Below are positions 1,151-18,046 of a stretch of 64,000 nt of DNA, one piece after another; the stretch's first letter is position 1; each line of letters opens with the position of its first letter. Origin of the DNA: Balneola sp. GTDB lineage: Bacteria; Bacteroidota; Rhodothermia; Balneolales; Balneolaceae. The translations under genes and the position numbers were made by a program. Below the pieces are notes generated by a model. It saw only the letters and a list, made by a program, of their open reading frames with translations. It was not told the origin of the DNA and made no database searches. Location: NCBI GenBank assembly GCA_003712055.1, contig RHLJ01000001.1, positions 620,001 through 684,000 of the forward strand, given 5' to 3'.

Positions 1151-1179
1151 TACCTCTTATTGTAAAAGTGGAGGTTATA

Positions 1180-1599
1180 ATGAGTAGTTACTCCGATATT
1201 ATTTTTTTAAGTGCTGCCCTAGTAGTTTTCTCTTCTCTTGCCGTAAATACAGCACGAAATTACCAAACGACATCTCAAAACAGATATAAATCTGATATTG
1301 AGTTTAGAGCAATTGCCGTAGCTCAAGATGAAATCGATAAAGTGCAATGGATTTATGATCAGGCTCAGCTAAATTCTGCAAGCCCGTCCTACATCTATTC
1401 AAATTACCCAAAAACAGAGACCCTATTATATGGCTCTAGTCAACAGTATTCGGAAAATTTCTCAATTGAGGCCTCTTCTGAACTAATAGAAGATTCAATG
1501 CTTCAAAAACGCTATAGAGTAACAGTTATAGTAACCAACAACCAGGTATCCCCTGATATTTCTGTGACTTTAAATTATATCAAAACCTATGCAAAATAG
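1180..1599 (+). CDS. Pilin-like membrane protein, cassette copy 1, gene A (139 aa)
   Basis: A small protein with one N-terminal hydrophobic segment (residues ~7-25, DIIFLSAALVVFSSLAVNTA) followed by a polar, beta-rich domain, the layout of minor pilins and pseudopilins. It has no clear prepilin-peptidase site (no G before FTLIE), so type IV pilin membership is unproven. The start was set at 1180 because GGAGG lies at 1170-1174, five bases upstream, and because the paralogue at 3675 then has exactly the same length. A GTG at 1168 is in frame but would place the ribosome site inside the gene. First gene of a three-gene operon repeated downstream. Confidence 0.75.
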   Translation: MSSYSDIIFLSAALVVFSSLAVNTARNYQTTSQNRYKSDIEFRAIAVAQDEIDKVQWIYDQAQLNSASPSYIYSNYPKTETLLYGSSQQYSENFSIEASSELIEDSMLQKRYRVTVIVTNNQVSPDISVTLNYIKTYAK

Positions 1600-1605
1600 C
1601 TTGAT

Positions 1606-2193
1606 ATGAATATTGGAATCGTTACAAGTTTTGCAATTGGGGGGATATTGATGATCTCCATCTTAGCATTTAATGGAAGAGTATTAAGTCAAAGTGCAGA
1701 GAATACTGTTTCGGTATCCACCCAAATCAAACTCAATGAAATCATTGAACTTGTAAACAATGATTTTAACAGAATTGGCTTTGGTACCGGGACTTCCGAT
1801 CCATTCGTTAAAATCGAAGCAGATGATATTATTTTTGAAGCTGATGCTTTTGATGGAGATTCTTATGGGGTAACCAATATCAGATGGGAATTTGATAAAG
1901 CTGCCCAGGTTACTACTACTAAAAACCCCAATGATTTTTATCTAAAAAGAACAGGGCCTATTACTGGAAGCACATATGGGGAGACTCGATTCCCTGTTGC
2001 TCACTTTAGTGTTGTTTATAAAACAGCTAATGATGCTGTAACCACAAATACTGCTACTGTAAAGAAGATTTCTGTAGAAATTATTATCGAATCCCCTGAA
2101 CCCTACAGTAAATCTTCAGACGGAACAGATTTGTATCAACGCACTGTATGGAAAAGGACGTTTGTACCCAACAATATTAACCTACCCTATTAA
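1606..2193 (+). CDS. Pilin-like membrane protein, cassette copy 1, gene B (195 aa)
   Basis: N-terminal hydrophobic helix (residues ~4-24, GIVTSFAIGGILMISILAF) and a globular remainder with NDFNRIGF, DDIIFEAD and NIRWEFD blocks, all conserved in the paralogue at 4103. The layout resembles PilW-type minor pilins, but I cannot name a family with certainty. It starts six bases after gene A and ends 12 bases before gene C, so all three are probably co-transcribed. The C-terminal WKRTFVPNNINLPY is nearly identical in both copies. Confidence 0.75.
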   Translation: MNIGIVTSFAIGGILMISILAFNGRVLSQSAENTVSVSTQIKLNEIIELVNNDFNRIGFGTGTSDPFVKIEADDIIFEADAFDGDSYGVTNIRWEFDKAAQVTTTKNPNDFYLKRTGPITGSTYGETRFPVAHFSVVYKTANDAVTTNTATVKKISVEIIIESPEPYSKSSDGTDLYQRTVWKRTFVPNNINLPY

Positions 2194-2205
2194 TTCGGAG
2201 TTGTT

Positions 2206-3507
2206 ATGGGAAAAGGAATATTACTTTTGTTATCAGGTATTGTAGTTCTAACTGGGATTATTCAAACCAGAAGTGATCAAAGGAATAAAATACTACCTGA
2301 AAAAAATGCGGAATATTATAATGAAGTCCAGGCTCGAAATGTATCAAAAAGCCTAATTGATAATGCAATAGAGCTCATGAAAAAAAATACAGACTGGGCA
2401 GGAAGTATTTCTTCAGATTCCAATTACTTCGGTTCAGGAACACTAACTTCTTATACTATTAATAGTGATTCTTATCCAGCCGATCATAGTGTTACTTCCT
2501 GGGATCAATACAAAATTCTTCTGAATAGCATAGGCCGTTTCGAAAAAGACGGGGTTACTTACGAGGTGACAACTGAGGTATTAATGCGTCAGGATTCCTA
2601 TTCGAAATACTCTTATTTAACAGAATCTGAGCTTAGCTCTTCCGGTTCAAATATATGGTTCTGGGATAAAGATGAATTATGGGGCCCAATTCACACAAAC
2701 GGAACTTATAAGATGTCCGGTTCACCTACATTTAATGGGTTAACTACCAGCCCGAATATGTGGGATGGCCATCCTACGAATCCAACAAGCCCCGTTTTTA
2801 ATGGAGGATCAAACTTCTTTGCTCCTTACAAAAGCCCTCCGGATAGCTATGAATTATCAAAATTGACCTCTGCAGCAAGTTCCGGAGGTATTACCTACTC
2901 CAACCAAATTGAAGTAGATTTCTATGAGTACAGTAATGAGGGATATGTAAATATCCGCGAGTATTCGAGTGGGAGTTGGAGCAGCTGGGATAGTCATAAA
3001 TTAAGCGATACGAACGGCATTATCTCTACTTCCGGGAGAATTGATGTTAAAGGAGTAGTAAAAGGTTCGGTTACGCTTCATTCTGAAACGCTGATAGAAA
3101 TTGACGGAGATATCACTTATTCAACAAACCCAATAGTTGATTCTACTTCAACAGACCTTCTAGGCTTGGTAAGCGAAGGTAGCGTTCGCATCGACCGGGA
3201 TGCACATACTGCATCCGGTACTCAGGATTTAGATATTCATGCAACTATAATGGCTTTAAATACCTCTTTTTATGTTGAGAGCTACTGGACTGGTAGTTCA
3301 AGAGGTAAACTGAACCTACTTGGGGGAATTGTTCAAAAAAACCGGGGAGCTGTTGGTACTTTTTCAGGTACTTCTATCGTGTCGGGATACACAAAAAACT
3401 ATCAATATGACAATAGACTAAGGAGCCAAATTCCTCCTGAATTTCCTAGGGAAAGTATTTTCTCTATCCTTTATTGGAAAGATAAAGTAAGTAAAGTTGG
3501 AAGCTGA
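2206..3507 (+). CDS. Large membrane-anchored surface-type protein, cassette copy 1, gene C (433 aa)
   Basis: N-terminal membrane segment (LLLLSGIVVLTGII, residues ~5-20), then an alpha-helical stretch and a long Ser/Gly/Thr-rich region. The second half shows blocks such as GPIHTNGTYKMSG, ISTSGRIDVKGVVKG and LLGLVSEGSVRIDRDA, which look like a beta-helix or repeated beta strands. It resembles uncharacterised FCB-group proteins (possibly DUF4900-type); the name is uncertain. GGAG lies just upstream of ATG. The position after two small pilin-like genes recalls PilX/PilY-like partners, by inference only. Confidence 0.7.
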   Translation: MGKGILLLLSGIVVLTGIIQTRSDQRNKILPEKNAEYYNEVQARNVSKSLIDNAIELMKKNTDWAGSISSDSNYFGSGTLTSYTINSDSYPADHSVTSWDQYKILLNSIGRFEKDGVTYEVTTEVLMRQDSYSKYSYLTESELSSSGSNIWFWDKDELWGPIHTNGTYKMSGSPTFNGLTTSPNMWDGHPTNPTSPVFNGGSNFFAPYKSPPDSYELSKLTSAASSGGITYSNQIEVDFYEYSNEGYVNIREYSSGSWSSWDSHKLSDTNGIISTSGRIDVKGVVKGSVTLHSETLIEIDGDITYSTNPIVDSTSTDLLGLVSEGSVRIDRDAHTASGTQDLDIHATIMALNTSFYVESYWTGSSRGKLNLLGGIVQKNRGAVGTFSGTSIVSGYTKNYQYDNRLRSQIPPEFPRESIFSILYWKDKVSKVGS

Positions 3508-3674
3508 ATGTTACAAAAACGTTAGAGTATGGATGTAGTTTTCTGAGTAGTATTAAGTGTTAGACAGTAATCAATAGTGAAGAAACTCACTTTAAGTTAA
3601 TTAATGCAATTTAATTAGCGTATTCACTTAAGATTACTATTTTCACCTAGAATTATGTTACACAAAGGGTTGGT

Positions 3675-4094
3675 ATGGCAAGTTATGCCGAAATAATATA
3701 CTTGACTGTGGCGATGATGATTTTTTCCACTCTCGCCATGAATACGGCTAGGAATTACAATTCCACTCGTACTGAATTATATCGTACGGAGTTAGAATAT
3801 CGGTCAATAGCTGTTGCACAGGACGAACTTGATAAGGTTCAATGGATTTATGACGATACTGACTTAGATCCTACCAGTGGCTCCTATGTGTACTCAACGT
3901 ACCCTGTAACAGAAACTCATACTTATGGCTCAACTGATCAGTATAGCAGCGATTTTGTGGTATATGCGGAATCAGAACTTATTGAGGATACCGGATCACA
4001 AAAAAGATTTCAGGTTACCGTAAGCGTATTAAATGAATCATTGGATCCCGATATCTTTGTTACTTTAGATTATGTGAAATCTTATTCCTATTAG
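3675..4094 (+). CDS. Pilin-like membrane protein, cassette copy 2, gene A (139 aa)
   Basis: Paralogue of the gene at 1180: same length, same hydrophobic N-terminus ending in NTARNY, and shared blocks (QDELDKVQWIYD, AESELIEDTGSQKR, DYVKSYSY). AAGGG precedes ATG by a few bases. The 167-base gap upstream (3508-3674) is AT-rich and probably carries a promoter for this second copy. Most residue differences lie in the middle of the protein, which suggests divergence for a different assembly or surface rather than a recent duplication. Confidence 0.75.
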   Translation: MASYAEIIYLTVAMMIFSTLAMNTARNYNSTRTELYRTELEYRSIAVAQDELDKVQWIYDDTDLDPTSGSYVYSTYPVTETHTYGSTDQYSSDFVVYAESELIEDTGSQKRFQVTVSVLNESLDPDIFVTLDYVKSYSY

Positions 4095-4102
4095 GTGCAG
4101 TT

Positions 4103-4690
4103 ATGAATGTAGGATTAATTACAACGTTTGTTATTGGGGGTATCTTCATGCTCTCCATATTCGCCTACAACCAACAATTGGTTACTAGTTCCCAGGAATT
4201 TCTACTCAGTACTATTAGTCAGCAAAACCTTGACAATGTAGTTACAGTACTATCAAACGATTTTAATAAGATTGGGTACAACACCGGGCTGGCAGTTCCA
4301 TTCACAACTATAAATTCTGACGATATTCTTTTTCAGGCTGATGTTTATGATGACGATAGTTATAGCGCAACCAATATACGATGGTACTTAGATACCTCTG
4401 CACCGGTAACTGCTACATCTAATCCTAATGACTACTACTTAAAAAGAGTTGGTCCAATATCGAACAGCTCTTATGGAACCATACAATTTCCCGTTACGCT
4501 ATTTAAAGTAAAGTATTATACGGCCGATGGAACTGTTACAACAAATAAAACTTCTGTGAAAAAAGTGGAAGTACAGATTATCACTGAATCGGGTGAAGCG
4601 TACACAGTTGGAAATTTCAGTGAAGACTTCTATCCAAGAAATACTTGGAAGAGAATATTCGTACCTAACAACATAAACTTACCATATTAA
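4103..4690 (+). CDS. Pilin-like membrane protein, cassette copy 2, gene B (195 aa)
   Basis: Paralogue of the gene at 1606 with identical length and the same ending (VPNNINLPY). N-terminal hydrophobic helix GLITTFVIGGIFMLSIFAY, then a polar domain with NDFNKIGYNTG and NIRWYLDTS. Eight bases separate it from gene A and 12 from gene C. Exact function unknown; a minor-pilin-like role is inferred from size, topology and context. Confidence 0.75.
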   Translation: MNVGLITTFVIGGIFMLSIFAYNQQLVTSSQEFLLSTISQQNLDNVVTVLSNDFNKIGYNTGLAVPFTTINSDDILFQADVYDDDSYSATNIRWYLDTSAPVTATSNPNDYYLKRVGPISNSSYGTIQFPVTLFKVKYYTADGTVTTNKTSVKKVEVQIITESGEAYTVGNFSEDFYPRNTWKRIFVPNNINLPY

Positions 4691-4702
4691 AAAGGAGTTA
4701 TT

Positions 4703-6172
4703 ATGGGAAAGAGTTTGTTATTCTTAGTTGGCGGTTTAACAATTATTACAGGGTTAGTTAATGTTCAAAACTCTGATAGAATGCAGGACTTGCCCGAAAT
4801 CACCAACGCATACTATGAAGAACAGGTAGCAAAAAATATCGCAAAAAGTCTCATCGATAATGCTATCGAGAATATGAAAGCTGATAATAACTGGACAGAT
4901 AGTTTAACCCTTACAGAAGTAATGGATGCTGGTGCCATGTTAACAAGAGATAATGATTTATTGAAAACGAATGTCACCAAGCTCTTAGCAGGGCAATCCG
5001 TTGAGGAGGCTCAAGTTGAAGAACTAGAACTGGATGTATTACAGTCGAAGCTTTTACAGAATAAAATGTCTGGAAGTTTAAAAAGCTATACTCAATCATC
5101 ATCTGATAAACCATCCAATAGCGTAGGTAGCTGGGACGAATATAAAGTACTGTTAATGAGCACGAGCACCTATGATAATATTGAAGTCACTACCGAAGTA
5201 CTTATGCAAAGAGACTCGTTCTCGAAATACTCCTATATGACTAATTCTGAACTCAGCTCTACTGGTGGAAATATCTGGTTTATGAGTGCAGACAATATTT
5301 ATGGCCCTATTCATACCAATGGTACATTTAAAATGTCTGGTAACCCATCTTTTTATGGATTAATTACCAGCCCAAATAATTGGCAAGCTCATAGTACTAA
5401 TCCAACCAACCCAAATTTTTTCGGTGGGGAAAACTTCAATGCCCCCGTAAAGGACTCTCCCACCTCTTATGAGTTAAGTAAATTGACTGCAGCGGCAGCG
5501 GAAGGAGGATTAACATTTGATGGAGACATAGATATCGACTTCTATGAAAGTGGCGGAGTTGGATACGCAGACATTAATAAAGCAGTTGTAACCTCTTATA
5601 CTTGTGGAACCAATCGTCGTCCAAGAATATGCTACAATACCACCTGGGTACAAGAAACCCTAGACCTTTCAACTATTGACGGGGTGATTTCTACATCAGG
5701 GAAGATTTCTGTAGAAGGAACCGTTAAAGGTGCAATTACTCTTCACTCAGAAGATGAAATTGAAATCGTAGGAGATATCTTCTACCATACAAGCCCAGTT
5801 GTTGATAGTTCCTCAACCGATCTTCTTGGTCTGGTAAGTGAGGGTGATGTAATTATAGATCAAAACGCACATAGTGCTTCTGGTACTCAGGATGTTACCA
5901 TACACGCGTCTATTATGGCACTTAATAATTCTTTCTATGTCGAGAATTATAGTAGTGGTGGAATTAGAGGAACTCTGAACCTACTAGGTGGACTAATACA
6001 ACAAAACAGAGGTCCAGTAGGAACTTTCTCAGGGAGTACAATGGTAACAGGATATCAGAAGAACTATCAGTATGATGGTCGTTTAAAGGGAAATATTCCA
6101 CCATCCTTTCCTAGAGAGAGTGTATTCTCCATTGTATACTGGAAAGAAGAAATTACGGACACTTCAAATTAA
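4703..6172 (+). CDS. Large membrane-anchored surface-type protein, cassette copy 2, gene C (489 aa)
   Basis: Paralogue of the gene at 2206 with the same N-terminal anchor and the same C-terminal half (GPIHTNGTFKMSGNPSF, ISTSGKISVEGTVKGAIT, GLVSEGDVIIDQNAH). It is longer by an acidic helical insertion around residues 70-125 (TLTEVMDAGAMLTRDNDLL onward) and by a small insertion with two cysteines (YTCGTNRRPRICYN) that copy 1 lacks. AAGGAG precedes the ATG. Function unknown; probably the largest surface-exposed member of the cassette. Confidence 0.7.
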   Translation: MGKSLLFLVGGLTIITGLVNVQNSDRMQDLPEITNAYYEEQVAKNIAKSLIDNAIENMKADNNWTDSLTLTEVMDAGAMLTRDNDLLKTNVTKLLAGQSVEEAQVEELELDVLQSKLLQNKMSGSLKSYTQSSSDKPSNSVGSWDEYKVLLMSTSTYDNIEVTTEVLMQRDSFSKYSYMTNSELSSTGGNIWFMSADNIYGPIHTNGTFKMSGNPSFYGLITSPNNWQAHSTNPTNPNFFGGENFNAPVKDSPTSYELSKLTAAAAEGGLTFDGDIDIDFYESGGVGYADINKAVVTSYTCGTNRRPRICYNTTWVQETLDLSTIDGVISTSGKISVEGTVKGAITLHSEDEIEIVGDIFYHTSPVVDSSSTDLLGLVSEGDVIIDQNAHSASGTQDVTIHASIMALNNSFYVENYSSGGIRGTLNLLGGLIQQNRGPVGTFSGSTMVTGYQKNYQYDGRLKGNIPPSFPRESVFSIVYWKEEITDTSN

Positions 6173-6177
6173 TTTGC

Positions 6178-6570
6178 ATGAGATTAGCTATCGCATTTCT
6201 ATTTTTTGGTTTAATACTACTTAGTTCAAACCAGGCAGAGGCAAGACAATCCGTCACTTTTAATGTAAATATGAAACCTCAGCTTGAGGACAGTACTTTT
6301 GTGCCAGGCAGAGATCAGCTTCAAATCGTAGGGAATATACCTCCTATAAATTCACTCCGACCCTATTACCTTATTGATAGTGAGCCCATAGATAGTGTTT
6401 ACAGTGTTACTATTAACTTTCCGGCCAGATTTAGAAATCAAACTATTTCATATAATTTTGAGATGACTGCTAATTACAGGAAATACACCGAAGTCATGGA
6501 GAGGAATGTGAGGTTATTATATAATGAAGTCTCGTTAGATGCTTTATATTTTAATGCATTCGCCTGGTAA
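6178..6570 (+). CDS. Small secreted protein of unknown function (130 aa)
   Basis: Signal peptide at residues 1-22 (LAIAFLFFGLILLSSNQAEA). The mature part begins QSVTFNVNMKPQ and has FVPGRDQLQIVGN, resembling the start of beta-sandwich modules of the starch-binding type (VTFxVNM...PGxDxVxVxGN), here without an obvious ligand-binding core. It lies five bases after gene C of cassette 2 and is probably its last co-transcribed gene. Confidence 0.6.
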   Translation: MRLAIAFLFFGLILLSSNQAEARQSVTFNVNMKPQLEDSTFVPGRDQLQIVGNIPPINSLRPYYLIDSEPIDSVYSVTINFPARFRNQTISYNFEMTANYRKYTEVMERNVRLLYNEVSLDALYFNAFAW

Positions 6571-6667: not shown

Positions 6668-7171
6668 ATGAGGGTTCTCCTTTTAACCATATTTATCTTC
6701 ACCTTCCTACAAGCTTCTTCAGCCAAAGCACAAGAGACTCAGACCCTCTCAAGTACAATTGGTATTTCTACTAGAATAGCTCAATCCATTGAACTAATTA
6801 CTGTAAAATCCATGACTTTTGGTAATACTCAGCCTGGTCAAGAAGAGATTTATGTGAATCCTGTAGTAGATGCGAATGCGGGATATATGATTGCAGTTGG
6901 AACTCCAGAGGCTGAATTCCGGCTTAATTTTTTACAAGAGCGAAGACTTTCCAGGATTGAAGGACCTGGCTTCCTCATATTTACTTACGAATTATCAGGA
7001 AACGACATAGAAGATCAGTCAAGTTCTGAGGTAATAGAAAACGAAAATCAAACGTTAAAATTTAATCTGGATGGAGAGTATCACATTTGGGTTGGTGGTA
7101 TAGTTGTGCTTACAAATGCACAACCAGGTAATTATGAAGGTGATTTTACCATAGAGATCGACTATATCTAA
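6668..7171 (+). CDS. Secreted beta-rich protein, possible fibre subunit 1 (167 aa)
   Basis: Signal peptide ending SSAKAQ (residues 1-21). The mature protein has a strand pattern like DUF4402/spore-coat-U domains: an early hydrophobic pair (SIELITVKSMTFGNTQPGQ) and a C-terminal GNYEGDFTIEIDYI strand. Such domains are pilus subunits in archaic chaperone-usher systems. With the three genes that follow, and the chaperone and usher downstream, it is probably a minor fibre or tip subunit. That role is inferred. Confidence 0.6.
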   Translation: MRVLLLTIFIFTFLQASSAKAQETQTLSSTIGISTRIAQSIELITVKSMTFGNTQPGQEEIYVNPVVDANAGYMIAVGTPEAEFRLNFLQERRLSRIEGPGFLIFTYELSGNDIEDQSSSEVIENENQTLKFNLDGEYHIWVGGIVVLTNAQPGNYEGDFTIEIDYI

Positions 7172-7177
7172 TATCTT

Positions 7178-7774
7178 ATGCTATTGAAGAGATATACATA
7201 TCTCCTTTTATTCATATTGCTCTCCATGAATCTACCCTCTATTACGGCGCAGGAAATTGATTTCGGAAGTTATAGCAGTCAGTATACTATGACATTAACT
7301 GACCTTACCCCTGCTTCTGATCTTGATTTTGGATTAGTAATTACGGGTATAGATCAGGAAGTTGATTTATTTAACGCAAAGGTACTTTCGATTGAAGGAG
7401 TAAGTTACCTGGATGTAATTGTAGATGTTACCGGTCCACAATATTTAACACTTGATGGTGCTCCTTGCAGTACATCCAACTGTAGAATACCTTTTACAGT
7501 TAGGGCAGCCTACGCAAATAAAGGTACTAATAGTACTTCTCAGGCTATATTGATGACTACTATTGGATTAACTGCCAGTGCTCAATTTCCAATTAAGTAC
7601 AGGGGAAATGCCCCTCCTGGCCCTCCTCCTACTCCGGTATATGAAGGATATAATCCCTCGGCATTTAATGAGACCGCTTATTTGTATATTTACGGTGATT
7701 TAGATTTTTTTGGAGTAACTGTTGACGCCGGGAATTATTCCGGGGACATTTTGATAACCGTCCAATATGACTAG
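7178..7774 (+). CDS. Secreted beta-rich protein, possible fibre subunit 2 (198 aa)
   Basis: Signal peptide (residues 1-24, ending SITAQ). The mature part has SDLDFGLVITG near the start and ends GNYSGDILITVQYD, the same edge-strand pattern as its neighbours. The middle (IPFTVRAAYANKGTNS) is shared with the gene at 7767, so the two are paralogues. One cysteine pair (CSTSNC) may form a disulphide. A proline-rich loop (PPGPPPTP) is specific to this copy. Starts six bases after the preceding gene and overlaps the next by eight. Confidence 0.6.
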   Translation: MLLKRYTYLLLFILLSMNLPSITAQEIDFGSYSSQYTMTLTDLTPASDLDFGLVITGIDQEVDLFNAKVLSIEGVSYLDVIVDVTGPQYLTLDGAPCSTSNCRIPFTVRAAYANKGTNSTSQAILMTTIGLTASAQFPIKYRGNAPPGPPPTPVYEGYNPSAFNETAYLYIYGDLDFFGVTVDAGNYSGDILITVQYD

Positions 7775-8312
7775 GCCAAAAAAAAATATTCTTCTCTTTA
7801 CAGTAGCATTATTCCTCCTTGGACTTGTGCCAGAGTCATTATTTGCTCAATTCATTAACCTTCAGATTCGCATTGAGCCAGAATTAAGCGCAACAGTTGA
7901 GCAAGAATTAGATTTTGGTAGCTTTGATATTAATGCAGGAGAGCAATCTATTGGGATTAGCGATGTTAATGCAGGGCTCTTCAGTGTACGGGCATATTAT
8001 ACACAAAATGTATTTATAGAGTTAATCTTACCAGATGAATTAACTCACATAAATCCCGCAATATCTCATGTTATTCCCATTGATTTACAAATTGCCTATA
8101 ACAACAAAGGAAATCGATCTTCAAGGGAAGCAGTAGTATTAGAGAATAATAAAGGATTACTCCCTATAAATGAATACGGAGACGTTATTAGTTCCAATTC
8201 ACCCGAGATCTGGAAAGAAATGTTCCTCTTTGTATTTGGCTCAATCTATGTTAATGATATCGCTAGTGGTATTTATGAGTCAGATATCGTCCTTTCTATA
8301 GAGTATGACTAG
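7767..8312 (+). CDS. Secreted beta-rich protein, possible fibre subunit 3 (181 aa)
   Basis: Signal peptide ending SLFAQ. The mature part carries EQELDFGSFDINAGEQ, IPIDLQIAYNNKGNRS (shared with the gene at 7178) and a C-terminal SGIYESDIVLSIEYD strand. The eight-base overlap with the preceding gene implies coupled translation. Probably a fibre subunit or adaptor of the chaperone-usher locus; no enzyme motif is seen. Confidence 0.6.
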   Translation: MTRPKKNILLFTVALFLLGLVPESLFAQFINLQIRIEPELSATVEQELDFGSFDINAGEQSIGISDVNAGLFSVRAYYTQNVFIELILPDELTHINPAISHVIPIDLQIAYNNKGNRSSREAVVLENNKGLLPINEYGDVISSNSPEIWKEMFLFVFGSIYVNDIASGIYESDIVLSIEYD

Positions 8313-8537: not shown

Positions 8538-9056
8538 ATGAAATCTTTAAAACTTACTCTTTCCGTTTTTATGTTAGTAGCCTTTGCAAGTGTTAATACA
8601 TTTGCTCAGGAAGAAGCAACTGTAACTGCTACTGCAGAAATTCAAGCTGCTCTTACCATTAGCGCAGATCAAAATATCGATCTAGGAACTATTCAAACTG
8701 GTACTTCTAGTACTCTTGCTGCTGGACCAGATGATGGAACAACTGAAGTTAACGTTGGAACTTCTACTTCTTACGGTATCGTTAGAATGACTGGTACTGC
8801 ATCAGGAACTGTTACTCTCTCTTTCTCTGATGCTATTTTAACTCAAAGTGGTTCTGATCCATTGGACTTCGTTACTGTTGGATACGATAGCGCAAGCCAA
8901 GCTTCTCATACAAGTGGCTCTACATTAAACTTCGATGCAAGTGGAAACTTGACACTTTATTTAGGTGGAACTCTTGATGCAGCTGCTGGCTCAGGTACAT
9001 ACAGCACTAGTGGTGGTGGAACTGCTTCTCCAATTACAGTAACTATCCAGTACTAA
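8538..9056 (+). CDS. DUF4402-like secreted protein, probable major fibre subunit (172 aa)
   Basis: Signal peptide with cleavage near FA|QEE (residue 23). The mature part is low in charge and rich in Thr, Ser, Gly and Ala, with the DUF4402 pattern: ALTISADQNIDLGTIQTG at the start and ASPITVTIQY as the last strand. It has its own leader with inverted repeats and is followed by a strong terminator, so it may be expressed at much higher level than the downstream assembly genes, as expected for a major subunit. The pilin role rests on fold pattern and neighbouring chaperone and usher genes. Confidence 0.7.
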   Translation: MKSLKLTLSVFMLVAFASVNTFAQEEATVTATAEIQAALTISADQNIDLGTIQTGTSSTLAAGPDDGTTEVNVGTSTSYGIVRMTGTASGTVTLSFSDAILTQSGSDPLDFVTVGYDSASQASHTSGSTLNFDASGNLTLYLGGTLDAAAGSGTYSTSGGGTASPITVTIQY

Positions 9057-9218: not shown

Positions 9219-10055
9219 ATGAAAAAAATAAGTCTATTTACGGGTATTCTTATAGCGATAGCCTTCCCTTTCGCCTCATCAGCCCAAGTAACCATAGCTC
9301 CTACCAATCTTTTTATTGATGGTAATGCACGCTTCGGCACCTATATGGTTATTAACGGTTCAAATGAGACCCAGGAAATCTCTATCGACTTTATTTTCAA
9401 CTACAGCCAGAATGACGACACTGGAGAACGCTTAGTTGTTGAGGATAATGAGGAAGTTGAAGAGCAGTATTCTATTGCAGAGTATGTGCGCGCTTTCCCC
9501 AGAAACTTCACAATTGCACCAGGTCAACGCCAAGTAGTACGATTGCGATTAAGCCCCCCAAATGATCTCGAAGATGGAATGTATTGGGCTCGAATTAAAA
9601 CAGCTTCTTCTCCTGAAACACCTCCACTGGAGCTTCAGGCAAATGACGCAGTTTCAGCCAGGGTGGCTATAACCGTAGAGCAGGTAACCGGTTTATTCTT
9701 TAAGAAAGGAGATTTAAGTACAGGTATTGAAGTACTTGATATTGAATCTACCCAATCTGATGATAACCAAACACTAACTGTTCTCACATCGTATTTAAGA
9801 ACCGGTAATTCCCCATTCTTAGGCTCAATTACCGCATCATTGGTGAATGCAAGTGGCCAGGTAGTTAAAAATGACTTCGTATCCACCTCTTTGTATTTCG
9901 ATGGTGCGTTAAAACATGAATTTGATATTTCTGACCTACCAGCAGGCACCTATACTGTGCGTGTGATGTTTGAAAGCCAGCGAGCTGATATCGCGGCTGG
10001 GGATTTGGTTCAAATGCAACCAATCTCGCAAACATCTACATTCACAAAAAGGTGA
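9219..10055 (+). CDS. Periplasmic PapD-like fimbrial chaperone (278 aa)
   Basis: Signal peptide ending FASSAQ (residues 1-22). The N-terminal immunoglobulin-like domain shows a chaperone pattern: FGTYMVINGSNETQEISIDF, then YVRAFPRNFTIAPGQRQVVRLRL at residues ~89-111, and GMYWARIKTASSP. This is the PapD/FimC F1-G1 region, which donates a strand to pilus subunits. The second domain ends in a beta-rich AGTYTVRVMFE block. Expected role: capture subunits leaving the Sec channel and deliver them to the usher. It overlaps the usher gene by four bases (GTGA). Longer than typical ~230-residue chaperones. Confidence 0.75.
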   Translation: MKKISLFTGILIAIAFPFASSAQVTIAPTNLFIDGNARFGTYMVINGSNETQEISIDFIFNYSQNDDTGERLVVEDNEEVEEQYSIAEYVRAFPRNFTIAPGQRQVVRLRLSPPNDLEDGMYWARIKTASSPETPPLELQANDAVSARVAITVEQVTGLFFKKGDLSTGIEVLDIESTQSDDNQTLTVLTSYLRTGNSPFLGSITASLVNASGQVVKNDFVSTSLYFDGALKHEFDISDLPAGTYTVRVMFESQRADIAAGDLVQMQPISQTSTFTKR

Positions 10056-13000
10056 ATCTAGGGCTATACAGAAACCTCTTCTTTCTTACCCTATTCTTCT
10101 TTTGTATTAACCTAATACAAAACGAAAATGTATTAGCCCAAACTAGTGATGACGCCTTTGAAGTTTATTTAGACTTCAATCACAGGGGTATTATCAATGA
10201 CGTAGTAGTTACATACTACTTAGAGGATGTCTTTTTTATTCCAGCACAAGGTGTATTTAATATCTTTCAGGTTGAGAATTCTCTAGAAGGACTTGTATTA
10301 AGCGGGCGGTTTGGCTCTGAGCAGGCATCATATTTGATAGATCTCGAATCAAATATTATAACATTCGAAGATCAAAGTTATCCCATCACTACAGAAGACT
10401 ATATTCTAACAGAAGTTGATTTCTACTTACCTCCAAGAATTTATAGTGAGATTTTTGGATTAGACTTTTCTGTTGATTTTAGCAACCTAACACTAAATCT
10501 AGAAACTGAAAAAGAATTACCTATCATTCAATCGGCGATTAGACGGCAACGTAGAAGAATAGCGGAGAGGAATACTGCAGATAGAACTTACTATCCATTG
10601 CTACAGGGCAGAAATGTCACTCTTTTAGATGGTGGATTCTTAGATTATTCATTGTCTTCCAATTTTTCCAATAATACTAATGCATTCAACTACAATTCTA
10701 ATCTTGGTTTACAGCTAGTCGGTGGAGATTTACAAGGTTCTGTTTTTGGAGTAGCATCAGAGGACAATCAGGTCACTTCAACGGATAATTTAAGATGGAG
10801 ATATCTCATTAGAGAAACACCTCTTATAAGCGAAGTTACTGTTGGCCAAACTACCCTCGATGGAGTACTAACCAACGAATATACCGGGATTAGAATCGCC
10901 AACGACCCAATAGAACCAAGACGATTTTTTGATGAATTTGAGGTACAGGGAAATACTTTTCCTGAATCTGAGGTTGAGTTGTACTTAAACAATGCCCTAG
11001 TGGGGTTCGAACAAGCTGATGAACTTGGAAATTATCGCTTCCTTACCCCTCTTTATTATGGGTCTTCACAATTGGACGTAAGGATCTATGGGCCTACCGG
11101 TCAAATTATTGAGAGAAGATCCAGGGTACAGGTCCCTTTTTCATTCCAGCCAAAAGGCACTTTGAACTATAAATTAAATGCAGGAATCCTTGACAACCCT
11201 ATTATTGGGTCTACTGAAAGAAGTATGGCATTACAGGGAAATATGGCCTATGGATTAACTCCCTGGTTAACTTTAAAAGGAGGAGTCGAGTACTATGAAA
11301 CTGATGCTGGCGATTCAAAACCGTCTTATACAGGAACTGCTTCACTGCGTTTTCTAAGAAGCTATATACTGTCTTTCGAAGGTGTGACAGATGGCTATTA
11401 TCGAGCAACAATTAACTCAGTATATCCTAATGCCGCGAGTTTTAATATTGACTATACAAACTTTACTGCCAGCTCGGGGATTTATAATGCAGGAGGAAGT
11501 GATCAACAATTAGTAACTAGTTTTTTTTACCCTTTGTATTTGTTCAGGATTCCATTGAATATGAGAGCTTCAGCATTTACACGAGTTAGAGAGGGAATAA
11601 CTTTTACCACATTTAGGTACGATATAAACACTCGAATCCAAAAACTAAGCCTTAGGATGGGATTTAGTGATCGATATATTGATGAATTCGACGTTTTAAA
11701 TCCTACTTCTTCTGCAACTCTTGAATCCTCTGCAACCTATAATTTTTCGAGAAATCCCAATATCCCAATATTTCTTAGAGGCACTTTTTTAAGAGCTCAA
11801 GCCAGGTATTTACCCGCTGTAAATCAATTCCAATCATCCGAGTTTCTTGTTTCCAGAAATTTATTTTCGAATGGTCGTCTTCAGGTTTCTTATGGACGGA
11901 ACTATTTAACTAACTCAAACACTATTCGGGCTAGTTTCGTCATCGATTTGATTAAAACCAGATCGAGTACTACCGCAACAACCTTTGGAGGTTCATATAG
12001 TGTTTCTCAAACTTTGAGAGGATCCATTGGGTATGATCCTAATTACAGCAATTTTCTCCTTACGAGCCGAAATCAGGTAGGACGTTCTGGAGCTGCTTTA
12101 AAAATGTATGTCGATAACAACAACAACAACAGATTGGATGAAGGTGATGAAGAAATCCCTGAAGTAAACCTTCGTCTCCAACGGAGCGGAGCTTCAGAAA
12201 GGTTAAAAAACGGTGTACTCTATTACACCCAGCTTCAACCTTATTTCAGATACAATATGGAAATCAATAAAGCTTCCATAACAAACCCAATGCTTGTACC
12301 TCAGGTTGATCAATTTTCTGTTGTAACTGATCCAAATACTTTTAAAAAATTAGACTTAGCATTCTATACTTCCGGATTAATGGAAGGATATTTAGAACGG
12401 GTATATCAAGACGGACTTACCGATGGAATTGGTGGGGTAAAGCTATTACTTAGAGCACAAAGCGATTCAACTGTTAAAGAGATTCGTTCCTTCTCAGATG
12501 GTAGTTTTTATGAGTATCCAATTCCTCCCGGAAAATATGAGCTCTTTGTAGACCCCTCACAATTGGATCTACTGAATATGAAATCCATACCTGAAAAACT
12601 TGATTTTGAGGTGGTTTCCAGACCGGATGGAGATTTTATTGAAGGATTATCTTTCCAGCTTGTACCAAGAGACCTTATTCCTGAAGAAGAGGAAGTGGAC
12701 TCTACATTATTTACCGAAGCTGTTCCAAGTCTTACCCTTGATGATGTAACCGATGAAATAAGGAACGATCCTGAGATTATTCAGTATGAAAACGAGCTAC
12801 TTGTTAAGGTTGAAGAGGCCTTACGTTTGATTATTCTAACGCAAAATGAATTCTATGAAAGGGACTTTGAGAAAGCGTTTGAGTATATTGAGCAGTCATT
12901 ACAGGCATTTGAGACGGCACAAGGTTACGCATTGAAAGGAAGTATTTTGTACTTCCAGGGAAAAAGATTGGAAGCAGTGAATAGCTGGAGGATGGCCCTT

Positions 13001-13075
13001 CGGTTTGATCCCGATATTTTTATTCCAACTCTTGAGTCTCTTGATCAGCGAGTCACGGTCAGTTCATCGGATTAA
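10052..13075 (+). CDS. PapC-like outer-membrane usher with C-terminal TPR (1007 aa)
   Basis: Signal peptide ending VLAQ (~residue 30). Residues ~31-160 form an N-terminal domain. From ~190 to ~680 the sequence alternates as in a beta barrel. A plug-like segment (EVQGNTFPESEVELYLNNAL, then VGFEQADELGNYRF) begins near residue 293 and runs into RRSRVQVPFSFQPKGTLNYKLNAGI, a close match to the usher middle region. Near residue 687 is a DNNNNNRLDEGDEE loop, probably calcium-binding, followed by beta-sandwich domains. Residues ~913-995 are a TPR (ALKGSILYFQGKRLEAVNSW). Ushers translocate chaperone-bound subunits; the TPR is not normal and suggests a periplasmic partner. GTG start; the six genes from 9219 onward look like one operon. 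Confidence 0.75.
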   Translation: MNLGLYRNLFFLTLFFFCINLIQNENVLAQTSDDAFEVYLDFNHRGIINDVVVTYYLEDVFFIPAQGVFNIFQVENSLEGLVLSGRFGSEQASYLIDLESNIITFEDQSYPITTEDYILTEVDFYLPPRIYSEIFGLDFSVDFSNLTLNLETEKELPIIQSAIRRQRRRIAERNTADRTYYPLLQGRNVTLLDGGFLDYSLSSNFSNNTNAFNYNSNLGLQLVGGDLQGSVFGVASEDNQVTSTDNLRWRYLIRETPLISEVTVGQTTLDGVLTNEYTGIRIANDPIEPRRFFDEFEVQGNTFPESEVELYLNNALVGFEQADELGNYRFLTPLYYGSSQLDVRIYGPTGQIIERRSRVQVPFSFQPKGTLNYKLNAGILDNPIIGSTERSMALQGNMAYGLTPWLTLKGGVEYYETDAGDSKPSYTGTASLRFLRSYILSFEGVTDGYYRATINSVYPNAASFNIDYTNFTASSGIYNAGGSDQQLVTSFFYPLYLFRIPLNMRASAFTRVREGITFTTFRYDINTRIQKLSLRMGFSDRYIDEFDVLNPTSSATLESSATYNFSRNPNIPIFLRGTFLRAQARYLPAVNQFQSSEFLVSRNLFSNGRLQVSYGRNYLTNSNTIRASFVIDLIKTRSSTTATTFGGSYSVSQTLRGSIGYDPNYSNFLLTSRNQVGRSGAALKMYVDNNNNNRLDEGDEEIPEVNLRLQRSGASERLKNGVLYYTQLQPYFRYNMEINKASITNPMLVPQVDQFSVVTDPNTFKKLDLAFYTSGLMEGYLERVYQDGLTDGIGGVKLLLRAQSDSTVKEIRSFSDGSFYEYPIPPGKYELFVDPSQLDLLNMKSIPEKLDFEVVSRPDGDFIEGLSFQLVPRDLIPEEEEVDSTLFTEAVPSLTLDDVTDEIRNDPEIIQYENELLVKVEEALRLIILTQNEFYERDFEKAFEYIEQSLQAFETAQGYALKGSILYFQGKRLEAVNSWRMALRFDPDIFIPTLESLDQRVTVSSSD

Positions 13076-13079
13076 GGCA

Positions 13080-14918
13080 ATGCTTTGCGTTGAAAATCAA
13101 CATATCACCTCATCGAAAAAAAGGCTTACTAGCTTTATATGGGTAAGCTTTCTCCTCAAGAGATTATCTATTGCTTTTTTATTGAGCTTAGTAATCATTT
13201 CCTTTGGATTAGCACAGACAGCAACTGATGCTAATAACTCTCAATCGCTTGCTCTACAGGTTTCGAACCTGGAACAAAGCTATGATTCTCAAATTTATCT
13301 ACTCCTTGCTAATTACTTTGATCGTAAAAAGTTCTTTGTTGATGTAAATATTGACGCGGAGTTTGTGGATGAGACTATTGAAACCACCCAGAATCAAATT
13401 GTAAGGAATCAGTCTCAACCGGTGATCATGCCCGGTCTTCCCTTCCTTCCACAAGAAAACCTAAGAGAATCCGCTACCGCAGGTACTCCCGAAACGGTTA
13501 TTAACCAGAGTACGGTACGATCCCTTCAATTGAATAGCATAGCAGTAAGCATCTATGCCGACACTTCTTTTACTGCCCAGGAAGTACAGTTTATGCGACT
13601 ACTGACGGGAATAGCCTCAAAAATAGATGAGAGCAGAGGAGATGTAATCACCATATCGCAAATATCTATTCCCAGATTTGGTACCGAAGATCCAATTAGG
13701 ATTGTAGAAACACAGCCTGAAACTTTTAATCTGGTGGCTTCTTTCAGAGAATACATTCCTGGCTTTGTCCTCTTACTACTTTTCGGACTCATCATGTTTG
13801 TGAATAGTTTCTTTAACCGACCTAAAGAGACCATATCCCCTATCCAACAACGAGAAAGTATTAAGCACGATATCAATATTACCGATCTTGGAGCCAGACG
13901 TGTAGAGCAGGTGATGGTGGGTAGCTCTGATGGTGATATCTCACAAGAGATTAATGAATTAATTCAAAGCTTCTTCAACAAACCCCAGGAAATAGCTTTG
14001 TTATTTGAATACTGGATGGCTGAAAACCCAGAGGAAGGTGTATTGAGAGCTGCTGAAGTAGCTTGTAGTGTTGATAAGCACTTGCTAAGGACGCTTAAGT
14101 CAGATATGCAGCCTGAGAATTATGAAGCTATTTCTAAATTGGCTGATGAAATGCCTCCGCTTACTTCTGATGTGAAAGGCACCGTTATCCGGAAATTCAA
14201 TACTATGCTTAAATCCGGAAGTGCAGAAAGCATGAATGCCAGAAAAAGCGGGCATATCACACTGTTTAAATTCCTCGAGCATATCAACGAGCAGCAAATA
14301 GTGAAGTTGATTGGTGATGAAGGCCACCAAACCGGAGCTTTGGTCCTTGATTATCTTCCTGAAGAAAAAGCAGCATCGGTACTAAAGAAACTTAGCCCTA
14401 CCCAAAGTACTAACCTCATGCTTAAAATGACCACGGTTGGTACTCTCCCGTTCCAACTTCAGAATGAGATTTCAACACGTCTCTTTGATAAGGCTATGGA
14501 TCTTATTGAAGAAGAAAAAGAACAAAAGCTTGGAGCTGAGAATATTCTTCCTGTATTGGAAAAACTCCCTCTTAATGAACAACAGAAATATATTGACCAG
14601 CTTAAGGCTTCCAATGCTGCAGTTGGAGATATTATCGAAGGACAGTTTATCACTATTGACCAGGTAATCAATATTACTGATAACATTATCAAAGAAGCTC
14701 TGAAAGATTTAAACACTGCTACCTTATTAGACGCTATCGTTGATCTTGATCCAAAGCTGATTGATAAAATACTTTCTGTTCGAGCAAGAAGAGAACAACG
14801 ACTTATAAGACTTGAACTAGACGAAATTAAAGGGAGACCATATAAAGATACCGAGGTTGTTAAAAAGCAGATGATGGAGCTTATTAGAAAGGAAGTGAGA
14901 AAAAGCCGTGAAGATTAG
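13080..14918 (+). CDS. FliF-FliG-like fusion protein, inner-membrane rotor candidate (612 aa)
   Basis: Hydrophobic N-terminal segment (residues ~25-45). Periplasmic part ~65-215 resembles the FliF ring-building region: YDSQIYLLLANYFDRKKFFVDVNI, a flexible QPVIMPG linker, and SLQLNSIAVSIYADTSFTAQEV. A membrane helix follows at ~227-246 (PGFVLLLLFGLIMFVNSFF). The rest is cytoplasmic and FliG-like: EGHQTGALVLDYLPEEKAAS matches the FliG EHPQTIALIL...PEKAA motif, and the end (NIIKEALKDLNTATLLDAI, then KILSVRARREQRLIRLELDE) aligns with the FliG torque domain. The first FliF domains are absent. Start at 13080 chosen because earlier in-frame codons lie inside the usher gene. Usually these are two separate flagellar proteins. 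Confidence 0.75.
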   Translation: MLCVENQHITSSKKRLTSFIWVSFLLKRLSIAFLLSLVIISFGLAQTATDANNSQSLALQVSNLEQSYDSQIYLLLANYFDRKKFFVDVNIDAEFVDETIETTQNQIVRNQSQPVIMPGLPFLPQENLRESATAGTPETVINQSTVRSLQLNSIAVSIYADTSFTAQEVQFMRLLTGIASKIDESRGDVITISQISIPRFGTEDPIRIVETQPETFNLVASFREYIPGFVLLLLFGLIMFVNSFFNRPKETISPIQQRESIKHDINITDLGARRVEQVMVGSSDGDISQEINELIQSFFNKPQEIALLFEYWMAENPEEGVLRAAEVACSVDKHLLRTLKSDMQPENYEAISKLADEMPPLTSDVKGTVIRKFNTMLKSGSAESMNARKSGHITLFKFLEHINEQQIVKLIGDEGHQTGALVLDYLPEEKAASVLKKLSPTQSTNLMLKMTTVGTLPFQLQNEISTRLFDKAMDLIEEEKEQKLGAENILPVLEKLPLNEQQKYIDQLKASNAAVGDIIEGQFITIDQVINITDNIIKEALKDLNTATLLDAIVDLDPKLIDKILSVRARREQRLIRLELDEIKGRPYKDTEVVKKQMMELIRKEVRKSRED

Positions 14919-15462
14919 GCCGCTCTTCATATCACAAATAGCACGTCTATGTTTGATAGGCGGAATAGCATTCTCTTTAGTAGCCTGCTCAGGAAGCCGT
15001 CAAACTGTAAATACTGATCAACCAGTTGATACACCAAATGAACAACAAGCTGGGTTAATTTCTGAATCCCAGCCAACACCTCAACCGGATACCTTATCAA
15101 CTGAAGAGCAACTCGCCCTGGATTTAAAAGAACTTTACAGAGAAGAACTTTTCGAAAAACATAACTCAGAAGCGAACCAACTCGTTAATTTCTATATCCT
15201 GGCTCAGCAAAAGCTTTTTACGGGAGAATATCCCGAGGCGCTTAGCTTAATTCAAAGAGCAGCTCAAATCAAAGAGAATGCAGATGTACTTGCCCTTAGA
15301 GGCAGTATCTACCTGGGATTAGGACAACCAGATGAGTTTGTATCTAATTGGAGAAGAGCTTTGGAATTAGATCCTGAGGTTCCCATTCTACCTTCTCCCT
15401 ATGTAATTCAGCAACTCCAGCTTTATGGATTGATTGATGAAAATCTTCAAAAAAATTTTTAA
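14908..15462 (+). CDS. TPR lipoprotein of the usher-motor operon (184 aa)
   Basis: Lipoprotein signal with lipobox SLVAC (Cys27), then a Pro/Gln/Thr-rich linker and a C-terminal helical domain of TPR type at ~95-160 (ALRGSIYLGLGQPDEFVSNW, RRALELDPEVP). This TPR is clearly related to that at the end of the usher (ALKGSILYFQGKRLEAVNSW, RMALRFDPDIF). It overlaps the FliF-FliG gene by 11 bases and abuts the MotA gene. Likely a periplasmic lipid-anchored adaptor between outer-membrane and inner-membrane parts, by inference. GTG start. Confidence 0.7.
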   Translation: MKIRPLFISQIARLCLIGGIAFSLVACSGSRQTVNTDQPVDTPNEQQAGLISESQPTPQPDTLSTEEQLALDLKELYREELFEKHNSEANQLVNFYILAQQKLFTGEYPEALSLIQRAAQIKENADVLALRGSIYLGLGQPDEFVSNWRRALELDPEVPILPSPYVIQQLQLYGLIDENLQKNF

Positions 15463-16260
15463 GTGAGAACCTCCATACTTAACATATTAAGCTTTCTGGT
15501 TTCTTTAACCATTATGGTTTGGGGTTCTTTACTGGTAATGGGGTTTACTGAGTTTAATCTACTGCCCCCAGCCTATGAAATACTAAATATCCCGAGTCTT
15601 GCTATAGTTTTTGGAGGAATTTCGGCTAGCGTTTTTATCAGTTATCCTTTTAGAAAGGTTCTTCAAGCTCTTAAGGATAGTACTAAGCTTTTCTCTCACA
15701 GCACCATTACGGATGAGGTGCTCCAAAAGGACATCGATAATGTACTTGAATGGCAAAAAGTAATTAATGCGGACAAAGTTGCTGCCGTTTCTGAATTAAG
15801 CCGAACTTACAGCGACCAGTTTGAAGGCTACCTCTTTTCGGTGCTGGATACCAACTATAGCACTGAAGAACTCAGAGAACTTGGAGAAACAAATATCATT
15901 GAAAATTATACACGCCAACAACAAATCAATCAGATAATTGGAAGTATGGGTAGAACTTCTCCAGTATTTGGTATGTTAGGCACCCTATTTGGTTTAATCG
16001 TGATTCTTTCAGGTTTTAGTGAAGTTGAATCTTTGCTCTCTGGTTTGGGAGCTGCCCTTATGACAACACTTTATGGGATTATTGTTGGTAATTTCATATT
16101 TACCCCAATGGCAAAAAAGCTCAATAATATTGCTTCATTGCAATATTTTCGTGAAAAATTAATACTTGAGGGTATCATTTTAATTGAAGAACAAAAGACT
16201 TCCCTTCAAATTTATGATCGCCTACAGGCGCATATGAAACGCGGAAAAAGTTCGCTTTAA
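15463..16260 (+). CDS. MotA-type stator protein (265 aa)
   Basis: Membrane helices at ~7-28 and ~40-62, a cytoplasmic loop, and two closing helices at ~165-185 and ~190-215. The two prolines central to MotA function are present: RTSPVFGMLGTLFGLIVIL (P167, equivalent to E. coli P173) and FIFTPMAKKL (P215, equivalent to P222). GAALMTTLYGIIVG is the usual last helix. MotA and MotB form an ion channel that drives a rotor. GTG start immediately after the stop of the preceding gene. The length and PG-binding partner fit MotA better than TolQ/ExbB. Confidence 0.85.
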   Translation: MRTSILNILSFLVSLTIMVWGSLLVMGFTEFNLLPPAYEILNIPSLAIVFGGISASVFISYPFRKVLQALKDSTKLFSHSTITDEVLQKDIDNVLEWQKVINADKVAAVSELSRTYSDQFEGYLFSVLDTNYSTEELRELGETNIIENYTRQQQINQIIGSMGRTSPVFGMLGTLFGLIVILSGFSEVESLLSGLGAALMTTLYGIIVGNFIFTPMAKKLNNIASLQYFREKLILEGIILIEEQKTSLQIYDRLQAHMKRGKSSL

Positions 16261-16276: not shown

Positions 16277-18046
16277 TTGAATCCGGATTCCTTAAATATG
16301 ACTGGAAACTCGCTCTTCCCTCAAGAACCATTCGACCCGGAGGAAGAAAATAGCTGGCAGGTAAGTTACCTGGACATTATTACCATCGTACTTGGCTTTT
16401 TAATTATTCTCCTTTCCGTTTCCCAGATTGCTAAAGAAGAGTTCTCTTCACTTTCTACTTTATTTAGAGAACTAGCTGATCAAACCGAGTTTATAACTAC
16501 TCCGATTGAGGATATCCAGGAAGAACTCGAAGAATTACTACAGCCACAAATAGAACAAGGAAGACTTGAACTTCTTCGGGATTTAAATGATTTGGTTATC
16601 CGTTTTCGGGGAGACGATTTCTACCAATCCGGAAACGCAACCATACAATTGGACGGAATGGACTTATTAAATCACGTGATAAGGGCATTCCAACAAACTT
16701 CTCATGATGATTTTAATATTGATGTAGAAGGCCATACGGATAATGTTCCTATATCATCAGATATATACCCATCCAATTGGGAGCTATCGACTGCCAGAGC
16801 ATCAAATGTGGTGAAGTATTTTGATTACATGGGAATAGAAACTTCCCGGCTAAAGGCTTCAGGTTATGCTGATTCAAGACCTTTAATCCAATTCGACTCT
16901 TTTGGAAACCCATTTCTTGCAAGTAATGAACTCAATCGAAGAATCGTGTTGAGGTTATATTATACCACCGAAGCTTTAGAGCGAAAAGCAAATCAGGAAC
17001 AGTTCGCTTCATCTGAAGAAGAAACTATAGAAACTTCGGAGATAGAGAATCAAGAAGAAGAGCCCAGTGTTACTGAGTTAATACAATCTCTGACAGCGAA
17101 TCAATCTGAGGAGCCTGAACAAGAACAAGAAACCACTGAATCTCCTACTTCTTCTTCTACTGCTGAAGCTGTACCTGAACAGCAAGAAGAAACCCCAACA
17201 ACACCGCTAAGAGTTCAGGAACCAGGACCAGAAACCGTACAAGAGACACCTGGAAATCATACAGTTAATTTAGCGGCCATTCCGGTTTTTACCGATAGAA
17301 CAATTTCATGTTCTTTTTCTGTAAATGCCGGGAGCTTCCAATCTCTATCATCTGGTTTTCAGGTAGCATCTAATGCTCAATCCAAAACCAATTACAGCTT
17401 TGAAGTTTCTTACAATAACCGATCCTACTCAATTCGGTCTAATGAATTTGCTTCGCTAGGTCAGGCAATGTTAGCGCAGCGTGAAATTTCAGAGGCATTA
17501 AATGATGAATCCCTAGGTATAATCCATCAGTGTTACACTCCTGGGGTTACTTCACCATCACCTTTGCAGTACCAGATTCAATTTGGAGCGTTCCAAAACC
17601 AGCAAAATGCACTCGATTATTCCGTGAATGTACTGGATGAGTTTGGAATACAAACTTTTATGACCCGAAGAGCCTCTACTTATAATGTAGTAGCGGGGCC
17701 GTTCCTTACCAGGGAAAATGTACTTTCACAATTAAGCTCATTTCGGGAAAAAGGTGTTCGAGAAAACATCTTTATCAAACCTATGACAGAAGATGTAGCT
17801 GAATATGACTATGCTTACCAAATTCATTTAGAGTCTTTTGAGACAAGGGATGCTGCTGATATCCTGGCTAGCCGTCTTCAGTCTGCTCTTGGCGTGAGTA
17901 CTATTATTGAGCGTTCTACGGATGGAAACTACTATCTCATGACAGAACGATTCGAAAACTATAATGACGCGTCTTCACTTTTCAACCGGATTCAAAATAG
18001 AATCCCTGCAATGAATCCGGTAATATTCTTCCTGGAGTACTTATAA
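16277..18046 (+). CDS. MotB-type stator protein with OmpA domain and three SPOR-like repeats (589 aa)
   Basis: One membrane helix (WQVSYLDIITIVLGFLIILL) with the ion-binding aspartate at D33. An OmpA/MotB peptidoglycan-binding domain spans ~110-235 (VEGHTDNVPISSDIYPSNWE, LSTARA). A Glu/Gln/Thr/Pro-rich linker (~235-330) leads to three SPOR-like units near 344, 432 and 513 (FSVNAGSFQS, YQIQFGAFQN, YQIHLESFET). SPOR domains bind glycan strands lacking stem peptides, often at division sites. Ordinary MotB is ~300 residues, so the tail is unusual. TTG start supported by GGGGTGA at 16264-16270; an ATG at 16298 is the alternative. Confidence 0.85.
   Translation: MNPDSLNMTGNSLFPQEPFDPEEENSWQVSYLDIITIVLGFLIILLSVSQIAKEEFSSLSTLFRELADQTEFITTPIEDIQEELEELLQPQIEQGRLELLRDLNDLVIRFRGDDFYQSGNATIQLDGMDLLNHVIRAFQQTSHDDFNIDVEGHTDNVPISSDIYPSNWELSTARASNVVKYFDYMGIETSRLKASGYADSRPLIQFDSFGNPFLASNELNRRIVLRLYYTTEALERKANQEQFASSEEETIETSEIENQEEEPSVTELIQSLTANQSEEPEQEQETTESPTSSSTAEAVPEQQEETPTTPLRVQEPGPETVQETPGNHTVNLAAIPVFTDRTISCSFSVNAGSFQSLSSGFQVASNAQSKTNYSFEVSYNNRSYSIRSNEFASLGQAMLAQREISEALNDESLGIIHQCYTPGVTSPSPLQYQIQFGAFQNQQNALDYSVNVLDEFGIQTFMTRRASTYNVVAGPFLTRENVLSQLSSFREKGVRENIFIKPMTEDVAEYDYAYQIHLESFETRDAADILASRLQSALGVSTIIERSTDGNYYLMTERFENYNDASSLFNRIQNRIPAMNPVIFFLEYL

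Follow-up and report, generated by a model that had tools for sequence, protein, structure and literature searches.

The window analyzed here, a stretch of 64,000 nucleotides from a Balneola sp. genome, encodes a 612-residue protein that joins the RBM3 ring domain of the flagellar protein FliF, a transmembrane (TM) helix, and the switch protein FliG. Its gene shares an operon with the genes of a chaperone-usher pilus and of a MotA/MotB stator. We consider it probable that this fusion serves as the rotor in a minimal rotary motor, related to that of the flagellum, which drives a machine of the outer membrane, in this case a chaperone-usher pilus. An earlier note on the same DNA had already suggested a minimal rotor, and this suggestion gains strength from the MotA and MotB genes of the operon and from the fact that none of the other rotor, export, and filament genes checked was found. 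The main point beyond that reading is the link of the rotor to a chaperone-usher pilus operon and its recurrence, in other phyla, with another outer-membrane-like partner.

Domains and Structure of the Fusion

The open reading frame of the fusion (13080–14918; all operon features given for the window lie on the forward strand) was verified as one protein with the order RBM3, TM, FliG. When the sequence alone was compared with Pfam, FliG_M (1.5e-11) and FliG_C (8.6e-10) both scored above their curated cut-offs, but YscJ_FliF_C reached an E-value of only 0.078, which is too weak to secure FliF. A 27-member profile of the fusion, on the other hand, matched the solved structures of FliF chains at 1e-5 to 3e-4 and of FliG at 3e-42. 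Similarly, hhalign aligned the fusion with the FliF of flagellated relatives over residues 44–285 (E = 8.5e-9) and with their FliG across 285 columns (E = 1e-24), while the controls, consisting of five unrelated families and the crossed pairs, gave E-values of 0.02 or worse. Thus, both the segment that had been read as FliF (65–215) and the segment that had been read as FliG (280–612) found their matches, and the claimed union of a FliF ring domain, a membrane helix, and FliG is borne out by the profiles, hhalign, and the fold.

The fold was taken from an AlphaFold2 model (pLDDT 70), which was compared with known structures using Foldseek and VIA-align. The RBM3/S-ring domain with its beta-collar-like hairpin spans residues 50–199 (13227–13676). 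In the model, this region is an RBM fold with a collar: it follows a helix-strand-strand-helix-strand order (H51–77, E85–107, E137–160, H166–180, E189–194) with long hairpin strands, and only helices follow the membrane helix. VIA-align placed model residues 50–198 on residues 228–438 of Salmonella FliF with a Z of up to 14.9, and the rmsd to 7cg7 was 1.8 over 99 residues. Model residues 318–610 aligned with whole FliG over 283 residues (Z 15.7), with a large rmsd because the placement of the domains differs. The single TM helix between the two parts (residues 218–245; 13731–13814) is the equivalent of FliF TM2, as judged by hhalign and the model.

The front of FliF is missing, as the earlier note had it. 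PF01514, the RBM1/RBM2 side of FliF, had no match anywhere in the genome, and the segment N-terminal to RBM3 has only ~50 residues, with a single hydrophobic stretch. RBM1, RBM2, and the first TM helix (TM1) are therefore absent, and a probable signal peptide (residues 28–47; 13161–13220) stands in their place; in the relatives of the fusion, this stretch terminates in ..AFAQ or ..VFGQ. Since the first ~25 residues vary among the relatives, the true start codon may lie 3′ of 13080.

The FliG part is more complete than the middle and C-terminal regions originally recognized. Both of these are present, the middle domain at residues 396–475 (14265–14504) and the C domain with its torque helix at 14598–14897, but they are preceded by an equivalent of the FliG N domain (residues 286–395, or about 318–390 by a narrower estimate; 13935–14264), which by itself aligned with canonical FliG in hhalign (E = 1e-4) and was matched to PDB 5tdy (FliG_N) by the fusion profile at 9e-4. 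The fusion shares only about 14% identity with canonical FliG. The EGHQTGALVL motif was located at residues 414–423, where EGHQ (414–417) replaces EHPQ, and the relatives show other letters; the canonical FliGs in this alignment were chosen by EHPQ, so the contrast is biased on the canonical side. The EHPQ region of the FliG middle domain binds FliM.

Are the residues that receive torque retained? In E. coli, MotA acts on R281 and D288/D289 of FliG (PMC12505986). In the torque helix alignment, the position of R281 is occupied by R571 and that of D289 by E579, but the first acidic residue (D288) and the later arginine (R297) of canonical FliG have no equivalents in the fusion, so the alignment of charged residues proposed in the earlier note shows retention in part.

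The Pilus Genes of the Operon

The operon comprises, in order, the genes of four pilin-like proteins, a PapD-like chaperone, an usher, the fusion, a tetratricopeptide repeat (TPR) lipoprotein, MotA, and MotB, and it is tightly packed, with the stop of the usher gene at 13075 and the start of the fusion at 13080. The 1007-residue usher (10052–13075) had no informative Pfam match. Its AlphaFold2 model, however, matched FimD/PapC in Foldseek with E-values down to 6.6e-27, and the alignment, which covers the barrel, plug, and C-terminal domains, gave a Z of about 20 compared with about 14 for other barrels. The usher ends in a TPR domain (residues 907–1002) that clusters with the TPR lipoprotein.

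The periplasmic chaperone (9219–10055), which adjoins the usher, is PapD-like but weak by sequence (PapD_N 0.068). PapD_N was found in 5 of 17 chaperone relatives, with a best value of 6.7e-4, and a profile search of the PDB gave no match. The four pilin-like subunits are encoded at 6668–7171, 7178–7774, 7767–8312, and 8538–9056 and terminate in ..IDYI, ..VQYD, ..IEYD, and ..TIQY, respectively. Chaperone-usher pilins carry a tyrosine at or next to the C-terminus; such a tyrosine was present in 56 of 65 pilin-like proteins compared with 37 of 596 other open reading frames.

Two further gene groups lie near the pilins. At 1168–6570 of the window, a three-gene set is duplicated in tandem (143/139, 195/195, and 433/489 residues); its proteins have a single N-terminal hydrophobic helix, with DUF4900 in the long one, and the set, which in near relatives also lies upstream of the operon, resembles a pseudopilin-like set. 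Large secreted proteins whose C-terminal tail resembles that of type IX secretion substrates are often encoded upstream of the pilin genes (98–1090 in the window; the c8 proteins of loci L084, L089, and L090), and they are possibly adhesin cargo or chance neighbors.

The Stator Genes

The gene of the TPR lipoprotein (14908–15462) begins with GTG, overlaps the fusion by 11 bases, and occupies the same position in nearly all loci. It is followed by the genes of a MotA-type subunit (15463–16260; MotA_ExbB 4.1e-17) and of a MotB-type subunit (16277–18046). The latter combines a plug/TM segment bearing an aspartate, an OmpA peptidoglycan domain, and two SPOR repeats, as shown by Pfam and alignment. 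Flagellar MotP/MotA models matched MotA at 3e-28 versus 0.054 for TolQ, and a profile search of the PDB retrieved solved MotA at 2e-20, with MotA/PomA aligned throughout the cytoplasmic region. Furthermore, the ion-channel aspartate is present in 40 of 40 operon MotBs, and nearly all MotAs contain the characteristic prolines. These sequence features assign the stator to the flagellar MotA/MotB type.

The two SPOR repeats of MotB stand C-terminal to the OmpA domain, and this long MotB was seen only in type-1 operons (described below) of the family. Denuded glycan at division sites is the usual target of SPOR domains, and since MotB carries these repeats, the motor may be placed at the septum or the poles.

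Flagellar Genes in Fusion-Bearing Genomes

A profile search of the Balneola genome (99.4% complete) found no canonical FliF, FliM/FliN, FlhA, or flagellin, and the only FliG matches were two fusions. FliM/FliN, FlhA, and flagellin were likewise not found in ten further fusion-bearing genomes, two of which are single-contig, while six others contain FliM/FliN and FlhA besides the fusion. Could the fusion be an extra part of a flagellum? We rejected this candidate, as none of the flagellar genes tested was found in the Balneola genome and the flagellated relatives hold canonical FliF and FliG besides the fusion.

Distribution and Operon Types

The fusion occurs in about 32 of the 128 genomes of the order, so a sequence artifact or frameshift fusion was rejected. 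A contig search with the single fusion protein gave no match; an alignment-based search succeeded. Three operon layouts were observed among the loci compared. Type 1, the layout of the window (pilins, chaperone, usher, fusion, TPR lipoprotein, MotA, MotB), is shared by about 15 Balneolales genomes from several genera, and its named relatives belong to Balneolaceae/Balneola. Type 2, whose named relatives belong to Fibrobacteres and KSB1, lacks the usher and comprises the fusion, a barrel-like protein of 360–400 residues, the TPR lipoprotein, MotA, and MotB. In type 3, found in another family of the phylum, the motor genes lead and the fusion stands at the end.

The second fusion operon of the Balneola genome is of type 2 (contig C2; L003 8328–13391), with a 369-residue outer-membrane-like protein replacing the usher. 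The same layout was seen in Fibrobacteres (L130 and L133) and in KSB1 (L131, which has no called TPR gene). The barrel-like partner had no PDB profile match and no Pfam family; "CsgG/FlgO-like" is a working label given by the look of its sequence. The two fusion paralogues of the Balneola genome are 23% identical over FliG, which points to an old split, and the fusion types and canonical FliG each stand on long branches in an unrooted FliG tree. An extra N-terminal extension was observed in the fusions of L099 (9392–10930) and L097 (2253–4571); Pfam identified LysM in one member, a hint that the rotor protein may contact peptidoglycan.

Rotor genes do occur in non-motile genomes (PMC12199754), and the fusion might accordingly be a functionless flagellar remnant or a rotor piece retained for another use, for example, as an assembly scaffold. 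This appears very improbable, as there are two distinct operons in one genome, the gene order is kept in several phyla, the channel aspartate is conserved, and the joint loss with MotAB described below is unlike decay. That the usher-less type-2 operon holds the same motor is also compatible with a gliding-type drive, in which the motor, instead of spinning the pilus, would carry an adhesin or the usher/pilus platform as a whole along the envelope in the manner of Agl-Glt or GldLM. MotAB-class motors drive gliding elsewhere, but we regard such a drive as quite unlikely here, since rotation in place is favored by the ring-type rotor and by a MotB bound to peptidoglycan.

Joint Loss of FliG_C and the Stator

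Each domain was searched by profile in each locus. MotA and MotB were both present in 46 of the 46 loci that have FliG_C and sufficient contig; five further FliG_C loci stop at a contig edge and are not counted among the 46. On the other hand, four loci (L092, L099, L100, and L101) have lost FliG_C, MotA, and MotB altogether while retaining the usher and an RBM3–TM protein, and three of these (L092, L100, and L101) also retain the TPR lipoprotein. As the four loci belong to three families, the loss occurred more than once. Fisher's test with the loci taken as independent gave p ~1e-6 to 1e-5, which overstates the association because the loci are related. The stand-alone RBM3–TM proteins (L101 9314–10135, L092 8857–9888, and L100 about 3290–3900) end just past the membrane helix, and their genes sit between those of the usher and the TPR lipoprotein.

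The joint loss of FliG_C and MotAB is how a rotor–stator pair should behave. The operons with a stand-alone RBM3–TM protein and without MotAB are natural motorless versions, which indicates that RBM3–TM has a motor-independent role with the usher and that the motor is dispensable for having an usher. The retention of RBM3–TM alone with the usher in L092, L100, and L101 also fits a TonB/Tol-like energizer, in which MotA/MotB and the fusion would deliver short ion-driven strokes to the usher for gating or subunit export, with no continuous rotation of a ring; the MotAB relatives ExbBD and TolQR act in this way, and the usher is an outer-membrane pore. However, all 46 loci combine the FliG torque domain with MotAB, MotA scores as flagellar and not as TolQ/ExbB, and RBM3 is a ring-building fold, so we consider this explanation unlikely.

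Proposed Mechanism

The rotary motor that we favor starts from what was observed (the domain make-up, the operon, its conservation, the absence of flagellar parts, and the coupled loss of FliG_C and MotAB); ring formation, rotation, coupling through TPR, and output are the parts that we infer. Many copies of the fusion would assemble into an inner-membrane ring, in which RBM3 would make up the periplasmic part and FliG the torque ring on the cytoplasmic side; the FliF ring of flagella has about 34 subunits. It is plausible that fusing the rotor ring with the switch protein would spare the assembly between the two. MotA/MotB anchored to peptidoglycan would push FliG_C by means of the ion gradient, and the ring would turn. 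Rotation or strain would then cross the periplasm to the usher, probably via the TPR lipoprotein and the TPR tail of the usher, although this coupling is our guess from their shared homology. The output may be the turning of the pilus base or powered subunit export, and platform movement is a further candidate. RBM1/RBM2 and the FliM-holding motif would have been dropped because the export apparatus and the C-ring are unused. The trimming indeed looks functional rather than random, because RBM2, which touches the export gate in the flagellum (PMC11481574), and EHPQ are gone along with their partners.

More broadly, the stand-alone flagellar-type motor, with its fused RBM3–FliG rotor, MotAB stator, and TPR lipoprotein, could be an old and separate module of the Gram-negative envelope that serves various outer-membrane machines across Balneolota, Fibrobacteres, and KSB1 and that spins or powers the chaperone-usher pilus of Balneolota; to this wider proposal, we assign about even chances. 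The operon of a flagellum-less bacterium suggests that a flagellar motor has been reused to drive a non-flagellar machine. Rotor proteins without a filament are found in 11% of non-motile species, for which an alternative function has been raised (PMC12199754), and a candidate for such a role can now be named and tested. In the literature searched (preprints and most subscription journals lay outside its scope), we found no description of a motor-linked usher or of a non-flagellar RBM3–FliG–MotAB operon. If our reading is true, this would be the first motor-driven chaperone-usher system in that literature. Furthermore, the fusion and MotA offer a far simpler FliG–MotA pair for torque studies.

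Comparison with Known Systems

In GldLM/PorLM, ExbBD-TonB, TolQRA, and Agl-Glt, too, a MotAB-class motor works on a machine of the outer membrane, but no FliG/FliF rotor is known in any of them. The FimD/PapC chaperone-usher pili share the usher fold with its plug and C-terminal domains, a chaperone-like gene, and pilin-like proteins with a C-terminal tyrosine. The usher described here differs in having a TPR tail and an operon that encodes a MotAB-type stator and a rotor, whereas classical ushers are described as independent of a cellular energy source.

The natural FliF–FliG fusion claimed in the earlier note is real, but it has a precedent: Bergeron described a natural shortened fusion in the non-flagellated Chlamydiaceae (PMC4768692). 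As a kind of protein, such a fusion is thus already known, Chlamydia providing the only natural case found in the literature searched, while the machine has no described counterpart there; each module is known, and the function is what we infer. The Chlamydiaceae protein has about 330 residues, no SpoIIIAG-like domain (RBM3), and the M region of FliG only, and it occurs in genomes with FlhA/FliL and an injectisome (PMC4768692). It was therefore trimmed in the opposite way and has no stator context, whereas the present protein retains RBM3 and a complete FliG and shares its operon with MotAB. Engineered FliF–FliG fusions are functional in Salmonella, and Vibrio FliFG forms rings of 34 or 35 subunits (PMC4768692, PMC11481574); these are artificial and contain full-length FliF, unlike the natural, trimmed fusion. 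With the flagellar motor itself, the operon shares RBM3, TM2, the N-M-C order of FliG, and MotA/MotB with the channel aspartate and the OmpA domain. It differs in that a single fused protein forms the rotor, RBM1/RBM2 are missing, and the genome has no FliM/FliN, FlhA, or flagellin; instead of a rod, hook, and filament, the operon contains an usher.
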